In this document: piece by piece, positions 7,931-14,439 of the stretch
How the letters are laid out: every line of letters begins with the position of its first letter
Position numbering within the stretch: position 1 is the stretch's first letter
Source: a virus
Reading direction: 5' to 3' (one strand)
Length of the DNA stretch: 22,455 nt
Virus record (IMG/VR): IMGVR_UViG_3300020283_000034
Coordinates: 1-22,455 of that record
Made by a program: the position numbers and the translations under genes
Notes under the pieces: model-generated
What the model was told of the DNA's origin: nothing
Databases searched by the model: none
Seen by the model: only the letters and a program-made list of their open reading frames with translations

Positions 7931-8521
7931 TTAAATTATATCATTATTTTTTGCGCCATTATTGTATGTCGCATGTTCAAAATACATGAACTTAAATGAT
8001 GATGTTGCTGTAAGGTAATCAACCTGTGGGTTTGTAGAATCATATTGTGGACCATCTAGTGATATTGGAAATGCATCTATAAATTTCCACTCTGCAAGTG
8101 GTTTTAGATCAGCATCTGCAGCAAATAGACTCATATTACTCATGGTATTTAAGAAACCAGGTTCTCTAGCATCTGGTCTTTCAGTGACATTTTCTTTTGC
8201 ATACTCTTTGAACTGATCAAAAGATTCAGGATTTATCATTCCTTTCATCCATTTTAATATTTGTCTATAACCCTTCATCTCTTTATCTATAAGAAATGTG
8301 ACATCTAACTGTGAATAGTCTAATGTATCACCAGGTACAGATCTTGTTTGGTTAAATGGATTTGAAAGTATGGCTTCACCAGCACTAATTACTGGCACAT
8401 TTGCCTGTTGTACAGTATAAACTATATCAGGTAATTTCTCTATGGTAATAAAGAAATGTTGTGGTGCTGCAAAGGATAACTCGGTTTGACGAGCTATCAT
8501 ATCTCCAAACTGAAGTGCCAT
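7931..8521 (-). CDS. Virion structural protein, tail-tube-like fold (unassigned)
   Basis: The 196-aa protein has features typical of myovirus tube and tube-initiator proteins: a beta-rich N-terminus (HFFITIEKLPDIVYTVQ), a LPxxx-like segment (NVPVISAGEAIL), then SVPGDTLDYSQLDVTFLID and a helix YRQILKWMKG, and a C-terminal strand pair (SFKFMYFEHATY). This layout parallels the tail tube gp19 family, in which a V-x-G-D segment is followed by a W-containing helix. It could be a tube-initiator, tail-completion (gp3) or baseplate protein; I cannot choose. Its ATG shares a base with the stop of the 110-aa gene (TAATG), so the two are coupled and probably both late-expressed virion components. It ends in a convergent gap with phoH. 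Confidence 0.82.
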   Translation of the reverse strand: MALQFGDMIARQTELSFAAPQHFFITIEKLPDIVYTVQQANVPVISAGEAILSNPFNQTRSVPGDTLDYSQLDVTFLIDKEMKGYRQILKWMKGMINPESFDQFKEYAKENVTERPDAREPGFLNTMSNMSLFAADADLKPLAEWKFIDAFPISLDGPQYDSTNPQVDYLTATSSFKFMYFEHATYNNGAKNNDII

Positions 8522-8853
8522 TAGCTATCTACCTTAGCACCTGCTCGCCATTGATAACATGACCAATATCGTGCTTTCCATTTTGGTCCTGGATCGTCGC
8601 AGTTATGTCTTGCTCTAAATGAAGCTCTCCTACCAGGGTCATCTCTTTTAATTTCCATGTTTGGGTCACCAAATCGAACCATTACTACATTACCTTTTTC
8701 ATTCTTTGTGTAGACCTTAAATTTAGACTTACCATCTTGCACACGAATAGGGTCATTAAGTTTTACCTTAGTTCCTTGATATTCTGCTTCTGTTATTTGA
8801 TGGTCGAAATGTTCATTACAATCTTCACAACAATATTGCTCAAATGTTTTCAT
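8521..8853 (-). CDS. Small head-associated protein with putative capsid-targeting leader
   Basis: The N-terminus MKTFEQY closely resembles the capsid-targeting sequences of T4 internal proteins (which begin MKTY or MKTF), and residues 20-23 (I-T-E|A) fit the T4 prohead protease consensus I/L-x-E|A. Cleavage would remove 22 residues, including CCEDCNEH, and release an 88-residue basic domain. That domain has KFKVYTKNEKGN, VRFGDPNMEIKRDDPGRR and RARHNCDD...RYWSCYQW, which I recognise as a small recurrent marine-phage domain without a name I can cite. The gene starts four bases after an exact TATAAATA box with no Shine-Dalgarno, just after the gp23 terminator, and is coupled to the 196-aa gene. 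I infer that it is packaged in the head. Confidence 0.8.
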   Translation of the reverse strand: MKTFEQYCCEDCNEHFDHQITEAEYQGTKVKLNDPIRVQDGKSKFKVYTKNEKGNVVMVRFGDPNMEIKRDDPGRRASFRARHNCDDPGPKWKARYWSCYQWRAGAKVDS

Positions 8854-8857
8854 ATAC

Positions 8858-8865
8858 TATTTATA
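8858..8865 (-). promoter_or_regulatory. Exact T4 late box TATAAATA before the 110-aa gene
   Basis: Minus-strand TATAAATA matches the T4 late consensus exactly and follows the gp23 terminator, as expected for a new transcription unit. It ends four bases (GTAT) before the ATG at 8853, so the predicted transcript start falls at the start codon. Confidence 0.65.
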
Positions 8866-8871
8866 TTAGGA

Positions 8872-8902
8872 TAAAAAAAAGGGAGTCCGAAGACTCCCTT
8901 TT
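8872..8902 (-). terminator. Rho-independent terminator of gp23
   Basis: On the minus strand an 11-pair stem (AAAAGGGAGTC / GACTCCCTTTT) closes a TTCG tetraloop with the stable C(UUCG)G geometry and is followed by a run of eight T in total. It lies 23 bases past the gp23 stop and is the clearest terminator in the window. Confidence 0.92.
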
Positions 8903-8924: not shown

Positions 8925-10415
8925 TTACACGTTGTCAACTCTGAATTTTCTGTAGTACATGTTCGAATCAGGAGCATGTAAACCTTGAGATTGGAGTGAT
9001 CTCGCTGCAAATGGGTTTGATACCATTCCGTAACGAGTTTTGAAACCAATTTTAGGTTGGAAAGTTTCCTGACTTACTGCACGAACCATTTGTAATGGAA
9101 CGTATGGGCAGTAGAACATACCAGCATCCATGTTGTTAGTACCTTTATAACCAACAACGACATAGTCACCGTTAGTTGCATAAGGGTCAACATACACTTT
9201 AGTACGTCCGTTAAGTACACCAGCAAAAGTACCTGAAGTCACATCTACATTTAGGTTATCTTCTAAACCAGAAGTGTAATCAAGTAAGCCAGCCATAGTT
9301 AATGCAGAAGCTACATTAGCAGAGCAAAGGATAAAGTTTCCTTTTCCTCTTCGAGTTTCAAATGCAATAGTATTACATTCTTTTTCGATTTGCATCATTA
9401 AGCCTTTTTGTCTTTCAACAGACCATCTACCTTGACCATCAGCGATTAAGTCAAAGATTCCGTTAGTTGTAAGACCTTGTGCACCGTATTTTGCTTGAGA
9501 TAGGATAGTGTGGACAACTTCTCTATTGATTTCCGCAAGGATTTCAGTAGAAAGAATGTTAGCTAGTTCAGCTTCAGCATCCAAACCGTGGACAGCTTTT
9601 AAGTCTTGAACTAGTTCCATAGTGTATTCACTTTTAAGAGCTCTTGTTTTAGCTTCAACAGCAGTTCTCTCAATTGTGAATGACATTTCACGGAAGTTAT
9701 CTCCTTCACCCTCTCTTGTAGTCATTCCGAAGGAAGTGTTTCCTTCTCCTTGACCACTTGGCATATAACCAGTGTTAAGGCTTGGGTTGGCAGTGACTGT
9801 ATCTACAAATGGGTCATTTACAGGTGTAATTGAACCAGTATCAGTCACAGGGTCAGAGTCAGCAGTGCTAACACCATCATTTTTCGCTCTAGAGACAGCA
9901 AATGGGTTTCCAGATGTGTCATCGTTGCTTCCAGCAGAGTGCGTATTAGGCGAACCTGTATTAAACGCAGTACCAGAGAAGTTAGAGAACGGTTCGTCGT
10001 ACATAGCTTCGATACCAAGACCATTACCATCGCCACTAACACCTTCGTTAGTATTGTTGTATCTTGCTCTTAGCGCGAATATTAAACCAGTTGGAGCGTT
10101 CATTGGCTGAACACCACAAAGGTCAAATGCCATCATTTGTGGAACCGCACGTCTAACTAGAGAGATAATGATAGGATCATAACCTGCACGACCAGTAGCA
10201 TTTAGTGCTGCGTTAGTGTTAGAACCAGACATAGCACCACCGAAACTAGCACCAGATAAAGAAGCTTCTTCTAAGTTCTGCTCCTCTGCCAATGCTTTTT
10301 CCGTATTTTCCAGAACTTGAGCAAGAACAGCTTTTTTATCACGCTCATCTACTTTTGGTAGATCTTCGTGATTAATTACTGGAGCCCATTTCTCTGTTAG
10401 TACGTCGTATGACAT
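8925..10415 (-). CDS. 23: gp23 major capsid protein precursor
   Basis: This is the main shell protein of the T4-like head, with an HK97-type fold. The 496-aa precursor (T4: 521) contains the family segments SGASFGGAMSG (54-64), YDPIIISLVRRAVPQMMAFD and QPMNAPTGLIFALRARY, and ends with a conserved NPFAARSLQ segment. The N-terminal propeptide is acidic and helical. L48-E-E50|A51 fits the gp21 protease consensus, so residues 1-50 are probably removed on maturation. A loop around residues 120-220 is rich in Gly, Ser, Asp and Asn. AGGAG seven bases before the ATG gives a strong ribosome site, and a UUCG terminator follows, fitting very high late expression. A TAAATA box at 10485-10490 would provide its own promoter. 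Confidence 0.97.
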   Translation of the reverse strand: MSYDVLTEKWAPVINHEDLPKVDERDKKAVLAQVLENTEKALAEEQNLEEASLSGASFGGAMSGSNTNAALNATGRAGYDPIIISLVRRAVPQMMAFDLCGVQPMNAPTGLIFALRARYNNTNEGVSGDGNGLGIEAMYDEPFSNFSGTAFNTGSPNTHSAGSNDDTSGNPFAVSRAKNDGVSTADSDPVTDTGSITPVNDPFVDTVTANPSLNTGYMPSGQGEGNTSFGMTTREGEGDNFREMSFTIERTAVEAKTRALKSEYTMELVQDLKAVHGLDAEAELANILSTEILAEINREVVHTILSQAKYGAQGLTTNGIFDLIADGQGRWSVERQKGLMMQIEKECNTIAFETRRGKGNFILCSANVASALTMAGLLDYTSGLEDNLNVDVTSGTFAGVLNGRTKVYVDPYATNGDYVVVGYKGTNNMDAGMFYCPYVPLQMVRAVSQETFQPKIGFKTRYGMVSNPFAARSLQSQGLHAPDSNMYYRKFRVDNV

Positions 10416-10483: not shown

Positions 10484-10491
10484 TTATTTAA
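10484..10491 (-). promoter_or_regulatory. Probable late box (TTAAATAA) for gp23
   Basis: TTAAATAA on the minus strand contains the TAAATA core of the late consensus and overlaps the gp22 stop codon. It would give a leader of about 60 bases before gp23, which then has a strong AGGAG site. T4 gene 23 also has its own late promoter. The first two bases deviate from TATAAATA. Confidence 0.35.
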
Positions 10492-12589
10492 GTGCAGTTT
10501 TAGACAAGTATCTAACGTACTGCGATACAGGATTTCCATCCGTATCAGTATCCTGAGGGATTTCTCCTTCAGTACTGCTGAAAACTTCATCACCATAAGA
10601 TGATAGAGCTTTAGCTGCCGTTTCAGGATTTTCAAAGTAAGATTCTTTTAAAGTCTCTAACTTTTCCTTAAACTCATCAGTATTTGCTGCTTCTACACTT
10701 TCACTCAATTTTTCTAGGCGTATCTTTTGAGTTTCAGTAAGTCCATCACTAACTTCTTTAGTGATTTCATCTTTTTCGAAGGCTAATACTTTTGATTGCA
10801 GCTCTTCAACAATTCCGTCTTTCTCACTGATTTGGTCTTTATAACTTTCAACCGCTTCAGTAAGTTCATCAACAACACTGATATCTTCTTCAGGAATGTC
10901 GATGTAATTCTTTTCAAATAAACCTTTAAGGTCTTTAATAAAGTTCTCTGCTATTTCTGTTCTTAGAGAATACTTAATTTCTAAAGCATTCTCTTTTAAC
11001 CACTCTTCAGTAGCATAGTCAGTATATTTAGAGAACTTCTCTTCTAAATCTTTAAGATGATCTGCATTTTCAGACTCAAGTTGCTCTTTGATTTCAGCAA
11101 CTTTAGCATTTACTTTCTCGTTTACTGCAGTTTCAAAGACAATAGCGGCTTTTTGTTTGAAGTCTTCATCAAGATCGACATCTTCATCCATGTCTTTCTT
11201 CATTTCTTTCTTCTCTTTATCTTTATCCATCATTTCTTCTGGATCCTTGGCCATTTCATCTTTTTCCTTGGCCATTTCTTTGACTTCTTCGTCTTCTTTA
11301 GACTTCATTTCCTCAGGGTCTTTAGCCATTTCCTCAGTATCTTTTTTCATTTCGTCTACTGATTCATCTTCTTTGTCAGCCATTTCCTCAGGGTCTTTAG
11401 CCATTTCGTCTTTTTTCTTCATCTCCTTGACTTCTTCTTCTTCATCTTCCATCTCGTCCATATCTTTTTTCATTTCAGATACTTTAGATTTAGGATCAGA
11501 ATTATCTTTCATTGGAGTTTCAATAGGGTCAGACTCTTGATCGTGTGGACCTTTGTCCGCTTCAGCTTTAGGAGAATCATTATCTCCTTTAGACATGTCT
11601 AGAGTTTCTTTATCTTGATCAGGAAGTTGCTTATCATTAGCATCTTTCTCAATAGAAGTATCTTGTTTTTCCTCATCCATATCTTTTTTCATTTCTTTTT
11701 GAGGCTCTACTTCTTTCTCGTCTTCGTCCATGTCTTTCTTAGCCATTTCATCCATATCTTTCTTGGCCATTTCATCTTTCTTCTTAGCCATTTCTTCAGG
11801 ATCCTTAGCCATTTCGTCTTTTTTCTTATCAGACATCATCTCATCGACTTCGACTTCTTTCTCGTCTTCGTCCATGTCTTTCTTCATTTCAGAAACTTCT
11901 TCTTCTTTTTCTTCTTCTTCTTTTTTCTCGTCATCAGCGTGAGACATTTCTTTTACTTCTTCTTTAGCACCATCTTTACGGACTTTAGCTAAATCACTAG
12001 CATCAATGTCACCATCGCCATCTTTATCTAATTTCTTTTGGTCTCCTTTTAACTCTTCTTCTTTTTCTTTAGACGCCATTTCATCCATGTCTTTCTTCAT
12101 TTCTTTTGGCTCATCTTCTTCTTCTTCCATGTCGTCTTTTTTCATCTCAGATACTTTTTTCTTAGGATCTGATTCGTCTTTCATAGGAGTAGTGATTGGA
12201 TCTGATTCTTGATCGTGTGCAGGTTTGTCAGCTTCTACTTCTGCACTAGCGTCTGATGCATTATTTTCTTTATCACCACCGACATCTTTCATCGGCTCTG
12301 CACCTGTTTCATTTTTGTCAGGCTCAGCTGTTGGAGCAGCAGCTTGTTTATTAGCAATAGTTTCTTTCTCTGCATCAGGTAATTCTTTATCATTGACATT
12401 CTTCTCGATAGAAGTGTCCTGTCCCTCTTCTTTAACTTCTTCTTTTGCAAGATCGTCTTGAGGGTTATCTATTTCGTCTTTTTTAGTCATATCGGCTTCA
12501 GCCGCTTTTGCAGCTTTCTCTTGAAGGTTTTTTTCCATCAAGTCTTCAATGACTTCAATAAGACCTTTTTTTGTTTCTGTATCTGACAT
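10484..12589 (-). CDS. 22: gp22-type prohead scaffold protein with large repeat expansion
   Basis: The C-terminal about 230 residues (471-701) are helical and match the T4 gp22 core: DEDFKQKAAIVFETAVNEKV, a TEEWLKENALEI segment, and LTETQKIRLEKLSESVE. T4 gp22 is 269 aa in total; here the protein is 701 aa because about 470 residues precede that core. The extra part is very rich in Lys, Glu, Asp and Met. It contains many EMKKDMDE and EMAKDPEEM units, a duplicated segment (57-152 and 309-376, sharing QDTSIEK, HDQESDP and TPMKD), and one canonical EF-hand loop, D188-K-D-G-D-G-D-I-D-A-S-D199. Eight V-x-E-M sites resemble the prohead protease motif. Gene order protease-scaffold-capsid is as in T4. 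The core is normally digested by gp21 before DNA packaging. Confidence 0.92.
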   Translation of the reverse strand: MSDTETKKGLIEVIEDLMEKNLQEKAAKAAEADMTKKDEIDNPQDDLAKEEVKEEGQDTSIEKNVNDKELPDAEKETIANKQAAAPTAEPDKNETGAEPMKDVGGDKENNASDASAEVEADKPAHDQESDPITTPMKDESDPKKKVSEMKKDDMEEEEDEPKEMKKDMDEMASKEKEEELKGDQKKLDKDGDGDIDASDLAKVRKDGAKEEVKEMSHADDEKKEEEEKEEEVSEMKKDMDEDEKEVEVDEMMSDKKKDEMAKDPEEMAKKKDEMAKKDMDEMAKKDMDEDEKEVEPQKEMKKDMDEEKQDTSIEKDANDKQLPDQDKETLDMSKGDNDSPKAEADKGPHDQESDPIETPMKDNSDPKSKVSEMKKDMDEMEDEEEEVKEMKKKDEMAKDPEEMADKEDESVDEMKKDTEEMAKDPEEMKSKEDEEVKEMAKEKDEMAKDPEEMMDKDKEKKEMKKDMDEDVDLDEDFKQKAAIVFETAVNEKVNAKVAEIKEQLESENADHLKDLEEKFSKYTDYATEEWLKENALEIKYSLRTEIAENFIKDLKGLFEKNYIDIPEEDISVVDELTEAVESYKDQISEKDGIVEELQSKVLAFEKDEITKEVSDGLTETQKIRLEKLSESVEAANTDEFKEKLETLKESYFENPETAAKALSSYGDEVFSSTEGEIPQDTDTDGNPVSQYVRYLSKTALK
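11180..12151 (-). repeat. Degenerate repeat array in the scaffold gene
   Basis: Residues 147-470 of the scaffold are built from variants of EMKKDMDE and EMAKDPEEM. Nine-residue EMAKDPEEM occurs four times (259-267, 395-403, 420-428, 445-453). DNA repeats are imperfect and rich in GA on the coding strand, which also leaves long open frames on the other strand. Confidence 0.85.
11462..12421 (-). repeat. Segmental duplication within the scaffold gene (12134-12421 and 11462-11665)
   Basis: Residues 57-152 and 309-376 share the ordered blocks QDTSIEK, NDKxLPDxxKET, HDQESDPI, TPMKDxSDPK and KVSEMKKD. The first copy carries about 28 additional residues. This indicates an ancestral in-frame tandem duplication followed by divergence. 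Confidence 0.85.
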
Positions 12590-12623: not shown

Positions 12624-13274
12624 TTACTGATTCTCCAAGAACCTTTTAAAGAGTTTTAGTTTTGTATTATTTAATTCACGAGCAGCAGCCATTTTCAGCT
12701 CTTGTTGAGCTTTTTCTAAGTCTACTTTTTGCCATACTCCTGACTCAAATATCCATTCTGCCGACTCATAAACACCTTCTACAAAGGCTTCTTGAGCTGA
12801 CGGATCGAATACTACATCAGCTGCAGTAGTTAATACAAAATCTTCTTGTACTTCATTATATCCGCTACGATTCATTTTGAGAGAGCCTAAACCCCTAGAT
12901 GAAACACCAATTTTTACACCATCATCAAGTAAATTCTCTACGATTTTACCCATAGGTGTGCTTAAAACCTGTGCTTTACCATTATAGTAGTATCCATCAC
13001 GAGTTAATGATTTAGTCATGATAGCTGCTCTCTCAGGATTAACAGTTGGTTCAGCAGGGTGATTTAACTCACCTAATGCTCTGTTCTGAGAGATATAATC
13101 TTTTGTGTATTTCTCAACCGCCTGATCCATAACGTGTTGAGGATAGATACGACCATTTCTATTTTCTTTTTGTGCTTGTAGAAACGGACCTTGAATATAT
13201 TTTTTCTTTTCTGTCTTACCTTCAGTAATTACAGATAGGTCATTAAATGTAATATCTTCTTTGATTAACTTCAT
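12624..13274 (-). CDS. 21: gp21 prohead core protease
   Basis: This serine protease of the herpesvirus-assemblin/T4 gp21 type cleaves scaffold, capsid and internal proteins during head maturation. The 216-aa length matches T4 gp21 (212). The family blocks are present: GPFLQAQKENRNGRIYP (29-45), GELNHP with catalytic His72, and GVSSRGLG (123-130) with catalytic Ser at 125 or 126. Two sites fit the enzyme's own I/L-x-E motif: I-T-E18|G and I-F-E177|S, so self-cleavage at both ends is plausible, as in T4. Its ATG shares one base with the stop of the upstream 126-aa gene (TAATG). It precedes gp22 and gp23 exactly as in T4. Confidence 0.95.
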   Translation of the reverse strand: MKLIKEDITFNDLSVITEGKTEKKKYIQGPFLQAQKENRNGRIYPQHVMDQAVEKYTKDYISQNRALGELNHPAEPTVNPERAAIMTKSLTRDGYYYNGKAQVLSTPMGKIVENLLDDGVKIGVSSRGLGSLKMNRSGYNEVQEDFVLTTAADVVFDPSAQEAFVEGVYESAEWIFESGVWQKVDLEKAQQELKMAAARELNNTKLKLFKRFLENQ

Positions 13275-13668: not shown

Positions 13669-14439
13669 TTATGTTCCTGCGTATGTTCTAGCTCTGCCAG
13701 CCACTCGCTTTTTAGTAATCTTTCTTTTTAAAGAAGCAAGTTTCTTTTTACCTGCTCCTCGAGCTCTCATCGCTCTTTTTAACTTAATACCTGTTCTTCG
13801 TAAAGCAGCTTTTCTTGTACCTGTTTGTGGTACACATCTATTTCCTTGTAATCTTGTACCAGCTTTACATCTTTTTCTCTTAACTATTCTACCTTTTGAC
13901 CTTCTAAATATAACTCTAGCTCTTCCAGGCTGAGCTTCATCAAATGTAGTAATACCGTGCTCTAATGGGTCATCTACTGATTCTGGTAAATCAGCATCCA
14001 TGACATCAAATGTATCTGCAAACATTGCATCTTTAAGAGCAAGATAAGTCTTAACACCATCATCTACATGATCTATCTGATCATCAATCTCCATTTCCAA
14101 ATCCATGATCTGACCAAACTCATCTGGTAAAAAATCATAGTACATTTCTGGACATGAACAATCTTCATCATCTTCTGGACAATCACACATAGTATCATTA
14201 AGATCTGTACCATGCGACAGTGCTTCAGCTTCATCTAATTCTAATGTATCTTCAAATTCTACTGTTTCACAATAGTCTTCTATTAATACTTCATCTTTGA
14301 TTTCTTCAAGTGTATCTTCATCGATAATAGAGTCAGGTGACACAAAGCTGGAGTCATCGCGCACTAATTCTTTATAGTGTTTACGATACTCTTCACGTTT
14401 CTTGTCCATCCAAGTAGGAAGGTTTTGTTTTTCACTCAT
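13669..14439 (-). CDS. Prohead core protein, gp68-like (acidic N-terminus, basic C-terminus)
   Basis: This 256-aa protein has two opposite halves. Residues 30-168 are strongly acidic, with a Cys cluster C85-x-C87...C94-x-C96. Residues 169-256 are strongly basic (FRRSKGRIVKRKRCKAG, LKRAMRARGAGKKKLASLKR), a composition seen in the prohead core proteins of T4-like phages. Two sites fit the prohead protease: L68-D-E70|A71 and F-D-E168|A169. The second falls exactly at the acidic/basic boundary, so cleavage would release a DNA-binding-like basic peptide. It lies between the gp67-like gene and the protease, the T4 position of gene 68. Its ATG overlaps the preceding small gene by eight bases. Identity as gp68 rests on position and composition, not on a clear sequence match. 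Confidence 0.82.
   Translation of the reverse strand: MSEKQNLPTWMDKKREEYRKHYKELVRDDSSFVSPDSIIDEDTLEEIKDEVLIEDYCETVEFEDTLELDEAEALSHGTDLNDTMCDCPEDDEDCSCPEMYYDFLPDEFGQIMDLEMEIDDQIDHVDDGVKTYLALKDAMFADTFDVMDADLPESVDDPLEHGITTFDEAQPGRARVIFRRSKGRIVKRKRCKAGTRLQGNRCVPQTGTRKAALRRTGIKLKRAMRARGAGKKKLASLKRKITKKRVAGRARTYAGT

Follow-up and report, generated by a model that had tools for sequence, protein, structure and literature searches.

The locus and its genes

The window, which is the whole stretch of DNA analysed here, is a 22,455-base virus record from IMG/VR. It contains a T4-like structural block, in which the gene of the major capsid protein gp23 lies upstream of the ORF under study and those of the scaffold gp22, the prohead protease gp21, the portal, the sheath and the terminase lie further upstream (Table 1), some of these names having been read from the ORF translations. 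The stop codon of the ORF shares the sequence TAATG with the start of gp19. The order gp21-gp22-gp23-ORF-gp19 is kept in L001, the closest relative.

Table 1. Features of the ORF and of its surroundings in the window; a slash marks a predicted cut
Feature	Coordinates	Strand	Basis or remark
Whole ORF, 110-aa pro-protein, ATG start	8521..8853	-	Read in the sequence
Predicted propeptide, residues 1-22, charge -5	8788..8853	-	Parallels the T4 IPI leader
Capsid-targeting-like heptad MKTFEQY, residues 1-7, aromatics at 4 and 7	8833..8853	-	
Acidic Cys-rich spacer CCEDCNEHFDHQ, residues 8-19	8797..8832	-	Cys motif recurs in the family
Predicted gp21 site I20-T21-E22/A23	8785..8796	-	L/I-X-E motif (PMC9026906)
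Predicted mature domain, residues 23-110 (88 aa), charge +9	8524..8787	-	Alignment, model, charge count
gp23 major capsid protein, own candidate site LEE50/A	8925..10415	-	
gp22 scaffold, 701 aa, expected prohead-core partner	10484..12589	-	Family search
gp21 prohead protease (Peptidase_S77), predicted cutter	12624..13274	-	E=6.6e-39
gp19 tail tube gene, directly downstream of the ORF	7931..8521	-	Family search
Terminator-like hairpin and subsequent T run, separating gp23 from the ORF	8880..8899	-	Read directly
Late-promoter-like box TATAAATA, ending 4 nt before the ORF ATG	8858..8865	-	Also in L001

The translation of the ORF begins MKTFEQYCCEDCNEHFDHQITE/AEYQG. A sequence-only reading of the window had proposed a capsid-targeting leader from the N-terminal MKTFEQY and the I-T-E/A at residues 20-23, followed by a basic 88-residue remainder with an R-A-R-H-N-C ... 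R-Y-W-S-C pattern; all three are present in the translation. The motif [IL]xE[AGS] arises in 1.06% of shuffles of the first 30 residues, and an M-x-x-[FY]-x-x-[FY] start is found in one of the 23 window genes, where internal Met positions predict about 0.1. Both features had been pointed out before testing, so these odds are post hoc, and conservation in the family is a stronger test than either.

The gp22-like scaffold of the window (701 residues, compared with 269 in T4) has a long, repetitive, acidic N-terminal half with KKDMDEM and AKDPEEM repeats, and its match to the scaffold family lies in the C-terminal part. A 256-residue ORF at 13669-14439 on the minus strand has an acidic first part and, after FDE/A, a very basic C-terminal part (AQPGRARVIFRRSKGRIVKRK...); this ORF is a further candidate for a DNA-associated head protein matured by gp21.

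Comparison with T4 internal proteins

The gp21 protease of T4 recognizes an L/I-X-E motif and the propeptides of the T4 internal proteins are 10-19 residues long; in the IPIII leader residues 4 and 7 are the main targeting positions, while residues 8 and 10 are important for processing, which was blocked by Asp at position 10 (PMC9026906). According to the T4 record, IPI reads MKTFKEFTSTTTPVSTITE/A, with the start MKTFKEF and the site ITE/A, and the leader of IPII and IPIII is MKTYQEFIAE/A, where the cuts in all three proteins were placed by motif in this analysis. The key targeting residues are F4/Y7 in the window protein, F4/F7 in IPI and Y4/F7 in IPII and IPIII. I20-T21-E22 ends a 22-residue propeptide, compared with 19 residues in IPI and the range of 10-19 in T4 overall, and a gp21-type protease is encoded by the same phage.

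By its residues the window leader is thus of the IPI type, with F4, Y7, no hydrophobic residue at position 8 and an ITE/A end. Since residue 8 is a Cys, cutting would have to rest on the second site. The leader of C48C1 holds both kinds of site, MKKFKQYIDE/GCCEACKSLDEELELTE/A. The window protein also resembles IPI in being small and basic when mature and in coming from a genome that encodes gp21. Unlike in IPI, IPII and IPIII, the leader contains a Cys-rich acidic spacer, the mature sequence was unrelated to theirs in the family searches made, and the domain reaches far past the T4-like phages, where it occurs without the leader.

Propeptides of head proteins in the giant phages SPN3US and phiKZ are likewise removed by a prohead protease and probably target these proteins into the head (PMC5694885). 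As described there, they are mostly longer than 100 residues and end in AXE/SXE-type motifs, as opposed to the I/L-X-E found here.

Conservation of the site among relatives

A pattern scan of viral contigs gave at least 597 relatives among at least 600 pattern matches, two further scans contributed 80 kept loci each, and 28 records in the phages collection match the domain, which is present in phages of unrelated hosts. The start of the domain was placed in each ORF by a profile built from 16 sequences. The 240 loci examined yielded 145 distinct extended and 76 distinct leaderless forms, identical proteins having been collapsed before counting and 6 of 80 loci dropped for an ORF running off the contig. 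Charge and Cys counts refer to 144 extended forms, one with a propeptide shorter than 15 residues being omitted.

The extended relatives read ...[ILV]-x-E/A-E-Y-Q-G. A hydrophobic-x-E/[AGS] site stands exactly at the domain edge in 123 of the 145, counts that come from related sequences and are not independent events. P1 is Glu in 126 and P3 is Ile, Leu or Val in 135, P2 is free, and P1' is Ala in 125 and Ser in 19. The remaining 22 extended forms comprise 11 with Ala at P1 and E/A one residue earlier, 6 with Asp at P1 and 5 others. The likeness to T4 internal-protein leaders proposed in the sequence-only reading is borne out by this conservation and by the IPI-type leader.

The last 25 residues of the propeptide are acidic in 141 of the 144 forms, with a mean charge of -6.3, compared with -1.4 for control stretches 50-75 residues upstream of the site (66 forms). 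All mature domains are basic, with mean charges of +15.7 in extended and +19.4 in leaderless forms and a minimum of +8. This division would be consistent with an acidic segment that shields a basic, DNA-binding domain and is cut off in the prohead. In 85 of the 144 forms the 25 residues preceding the site contain a CxC or CxxC motif, compared with one of the 66 control stretches and 25 of the 66 proteins that supplied them. The leader segment CCEDCNEH, which had been regarded as unusual, is present as described, and its Cys motif turns out to be common in the family.

Leaderless relatives and the prohead protease

The 76 distinct leaderless relatives begin with M-A-x-[YF]-[QKRHE]-G, in which Met occupies P1; examples are MAKYQGRTVKLNKP in Aegir and MATYKGKSVSLNKP in CRP-902. 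If the initiator Met is removed, as is usual for Met-Ala, the leadered and leaderless routes would give one and the same mature N-terminus.

Among 15 named records with the domain, a gp21-type protease (Peptidase_S77) is found in four, C48C1, HTVC008M, Melnitz-2 and immuto, and exactly these four have a hydrophobic-x-E/[AGS] site before the domain (LTE/A, LEE/A, MME/S and LDE/G, respectively). The protease is absent from the other 11, of which eight have leaderless forms, CRP-2 has a short N-terminus lacking a site, and in CRP-6 and Vibrio phage 1.052 a longer protein carries the domain close to its N-terminus. The IMG/VR records, most of them fragments, contain a gp21-type protease in 6 of 25 extended and none of 25 leaderless cases, and gp23 in 5 of 25 and none of 25, respectively. 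The T4 markers of the window occur in the fetched flanks of 41 of 170 extended and 2 of 86 leaderless loci, both of the latter being weak gp17 matches. That relatives are made with no tag where the cutting enzyme is absent suggests, from these gene contents, that the protein acts inside virus heads.

The position of the gene varies. The order gp17-ORF-gp20 is found in 19 of the 41 T4-marker loci, the window's own copy being one of the 41, and L001 is the only other locus with markers in which the ORF lies beside gp19. In two Autographiviridae the order is scaffold-ORF-capsid, while the domain is fused to Peptidase_S78_2 (XkdF) in CRP-6 and to DUF2213 in Vibrio phage 1.052.

Fold and family

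The structure predicted from 43 aligned sequences (mean pLDDT 80.5) consists of four strands followed by two helices, and 20 residues are invariant among the 43 members. In the model the predicted cleavage site lies at a confident strand, residues 21-25, rather than in a floppy linker. Among solved structures, the best Foldseek match has an E-value of 1.0, VIA-align gave none at Z of 2 or more, and the best hit of the profile search, ribosomal eS4 at E of 0.035, is not useful. Sixteen viral predicted proteins match the fold at E of 0.001 or better, one of them named XkdF and one ChaB.

By profile the protein matches phrog_7595 (E 2.4e-12, residues 19-102 against positions 4-96 of 96), which also matches C48C1, Aegir and HTVC111P; its entry lists the function as unknown and makes no mention of a propeptide. 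The window protein has no match above the cut-off in NCBIfam. The name HVA1, given by the depositors to two relatives, found no support in the Pfam scans made.

Tlr6F is a small protein of unknown function in polinton-like viruses, virophages, Megavirales and some phages (PMC4642659), described as widespread in DNA viruses and uncharacterised (PMC4642659, PMC12220804). The corresponding Pfam model DUF5754 (PF19058), only 49 positions long, gives consistent sub-threshold matches over the same core in 20 of the 43 aligned members at E up to 0.5, the best being 0.001. The best score of all, in HTVC041P, is 9.7e-5 and 22.8 bits, compared with the Pfam cut-off of 27.4; none of 17 records exceeds that cut-off, and the window protein itself has no match at E of 1. 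From these matches, a distant relationship of the domain to Tlr6F/DUF5754 is probable. In contrast to the window protein, no leader is mentioned for Tlr6F in the descriptions consulted.

In podovirus forms (L278-L357, of which 14 of 80 were read, and L091, L092 and L094) the Cys pair of the domain is lost and an insertion is gained; two such forms have the best DUF5754 scores. A zinc site could unite the Cys residues of the leader with the domain pair that these forms have lost.

Modular proteins and possible further cargo

The neighbours of the gene in C48C1 and HTVC008M include further ORFs with leader-like starts, such as MLSFKQFVSE, MITFKKYLEE and MIPFILKE/G. Strict M..[FY]..[FY] starts number 7 in 196 genes of C48C1 and 6 in 187 genes of HTVC008M, where about one is expected in each and some of those counted are plainly not leaders; in non-T4 loci there are 6 in 530, with 4 to 6 expected.

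Many other T4-like phages have the domain at the end of long proteins that also contain cytidylyltransferase-like, DUF5824 and zeta/AAA-like modules. Leader-like segments precede modules in L074 (for example ESFEAYLNE/A and EAFESYLEE/G), and the genome-bin contig L371 contains VKSFKQFDEE...PLQE/AEYQG inside a 953-residue protein. In five of the 12 listed modular proteins (L030, L032, L035, L060 and L074), with domain limits set by hand from Pfam and PHROG matches, only one of 26 gp21-type sites falls in a named domain, though 36% of the residues do; the linkers contain 25 sites compared with 6.5 in local shuffles, and none of 2000 shuffles reached 25. For the whole proteomes of C48C1 and HTVC008M the ratios are 1.27 and 1.15, respectively.

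Many cyanophages encode proteins named cytidylyltransferase that match the cytidylyltransferase-like module. A protein of that name was found in the virions of cyanophage S-SM1 (PMC3037559) and, judging from the name, would belong to the same gene cluster.

The zeta-like module of L074 is internal, following EAFESYLEE/G, and is a separate protein in HTVC008M, where a zeta/AAA kinase-like protein has its own leader-like start MIPFILKE/G (L082, 9447-10109). Small, very basic proteins with leader-like starts are encoded at L081 6990-7361 (MLSFKQFVSE), L082 17858-18229 (MRTYRAFKK) and L083 1965-2357 (MKKFSEL), the first two matching phrog_23027; these three are candidates for further head cargo.

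Proposed function and alternatives

There is a strong comparative case, built on sequences, that the ORF encodes the precursor of a T4-type internal head protein whose basic domain is new and widespread, and we consider it probable that the protein is targeted by its leader, cut by gp21 and kept in the head as the basic domain. This reading rests on the IPI-like leader, the conserved site, the start of the leaderless forms, the match with gp21, the division into acidic and basic parts, the gene context and the enrichment of leader-like starts. The earlier suggestion of a head protein is supported in that the coincidence of the leaderless start, the match of site and gp21, and the head-gene neighbourhoods all agree.

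By comparison with T4, the IPI-like leader with its aromatics at positions 4 and 7 would direct the protein into the prohead core during assembly, where gp21, encoded 3.8 kb upstream, would cut after E22 and release the acidic propeptide. The 88-residue domain would stay in the head, most likely bound to DNA in view of its charge, and would probably enter the cell with the packaged DNA. Entry into the cell is proposed by analogy with the T4 internal proteins, and both it and DNA binding are less firm than packaging and cleavage. The literature searched yielded no virion proteome from a phage that encodes this protein.

A tentative alternative is that the protein is packaged and clipped, and its mature domain acts on a host target in takeover or counter-defence, as does T4 IPI*. 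The leader is of the type carried by IPI, which is injected and inhibits a restriction enzyme (PMC3012670), and other T4-like phages have the domain fused to enzyme-like modules, namely cytidylyltransferase-like and zeta/AAA kinase-like ones. However, the 20 invariant residues among the aligned members are unusual conservation for an arms-race protein, the domain occurs in phages of unrelated hosts, and in podoviruses the gene lies between those of scaffold and capsid. That same gene order would suit a head-assembly or core factor, which builds the prohead or aids the protease and for which the leader would be a regulated latch rather than a mark of cargo, as would the fusions to the XkdF-type protease domain in CRP-6 and to DUF2213 in Vibrio phage 1.052 and the XkdF-named fusion among the fold matches. 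Such a role is nevertheless unlikely, as the family search revealed no resemblance to T4 core proteins, and in C48C1, HTVC008M and Melnitz the gene is grouped with those of other modular or leader-bearing proteins and is distant from that of the protease.

Least probable, and in our view quite improbable, is a cytosolic or tail-tube-linked protein that resembles a leader-bearing one by chance, although the ORF overlaps the gp19 start in the window and the Cys and His residues of the leader could bind a metal. We reject chance resemblance, since the position of the site, that of the leaderless start and the occurrence of gp21 all agree, and a role as a tail-tube partner is weakened by the placement of the gene elsewhere in other loci, gp19 adjacency being shared with L001 only. 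Retention of E22-A23 for the sake of the fold alone is similarly weakened by the Met that occupies this position in leaderless forms, although the strand in the model counts the other way.

With the internal-head-protein reading, a domain present in hundreds of phage contigs acquires a site of action, the head interior, that can be tested. The reading also suggests that phages well outside the T-even group load internal proteins by the T4 route with different cargo, and the leaders could be employed to carry other proteins into these heads. The leader-like segments and the I/L/V-x-E sites between modules lead to the tentative proposal that in many T4-like phages cytidylyltransferase-like, DUF5824 and zeta-like kinase modules form a cargo polyprotein with the domain as its last piece, and that some such cargo may be cut into separate head proteins by the prohead protease. 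No description of a leader on this domain, or of a cargo polyprotein cut by gp21, was found in the mostly open literature available. More speculatively, and with considerable doubt, the Tlr6F/DUF5754-like domain might be a general DNA-associated protein of the capsid interior in dsDNA viruses, which the T4-like phages would load by way of a gp21-removable leader and which many of them would produce at the end of such a polyprotein.

The late-promoter-like box

An ATAAATA box, which we take to be of the T4 late promoter type, ends exactly 4 nt before the ATG in 4 of the 23 window genes, with starts at 8853, 13654, 14593 and 21868 on the minus strand. Over the whole window such boxes show no excess, 12 being counted and 13 expected by chance, and the signal above chance lies in the fixed spacing to start codons only. 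No box at a fixed gap was found in C48C1, the T4 pieces or the leaderless loci. In HTVC008M it stands at gap 5 in 7 of 187 genes, compared with 0.03 expected, and in the extended loci L097-L176 at gap 5 in 35 of 1225 genes, compared with a mean of 2.25 for other gaps. A box at such a short fixed gap predicts leaderless late mRNAs in some T4-like lineages.
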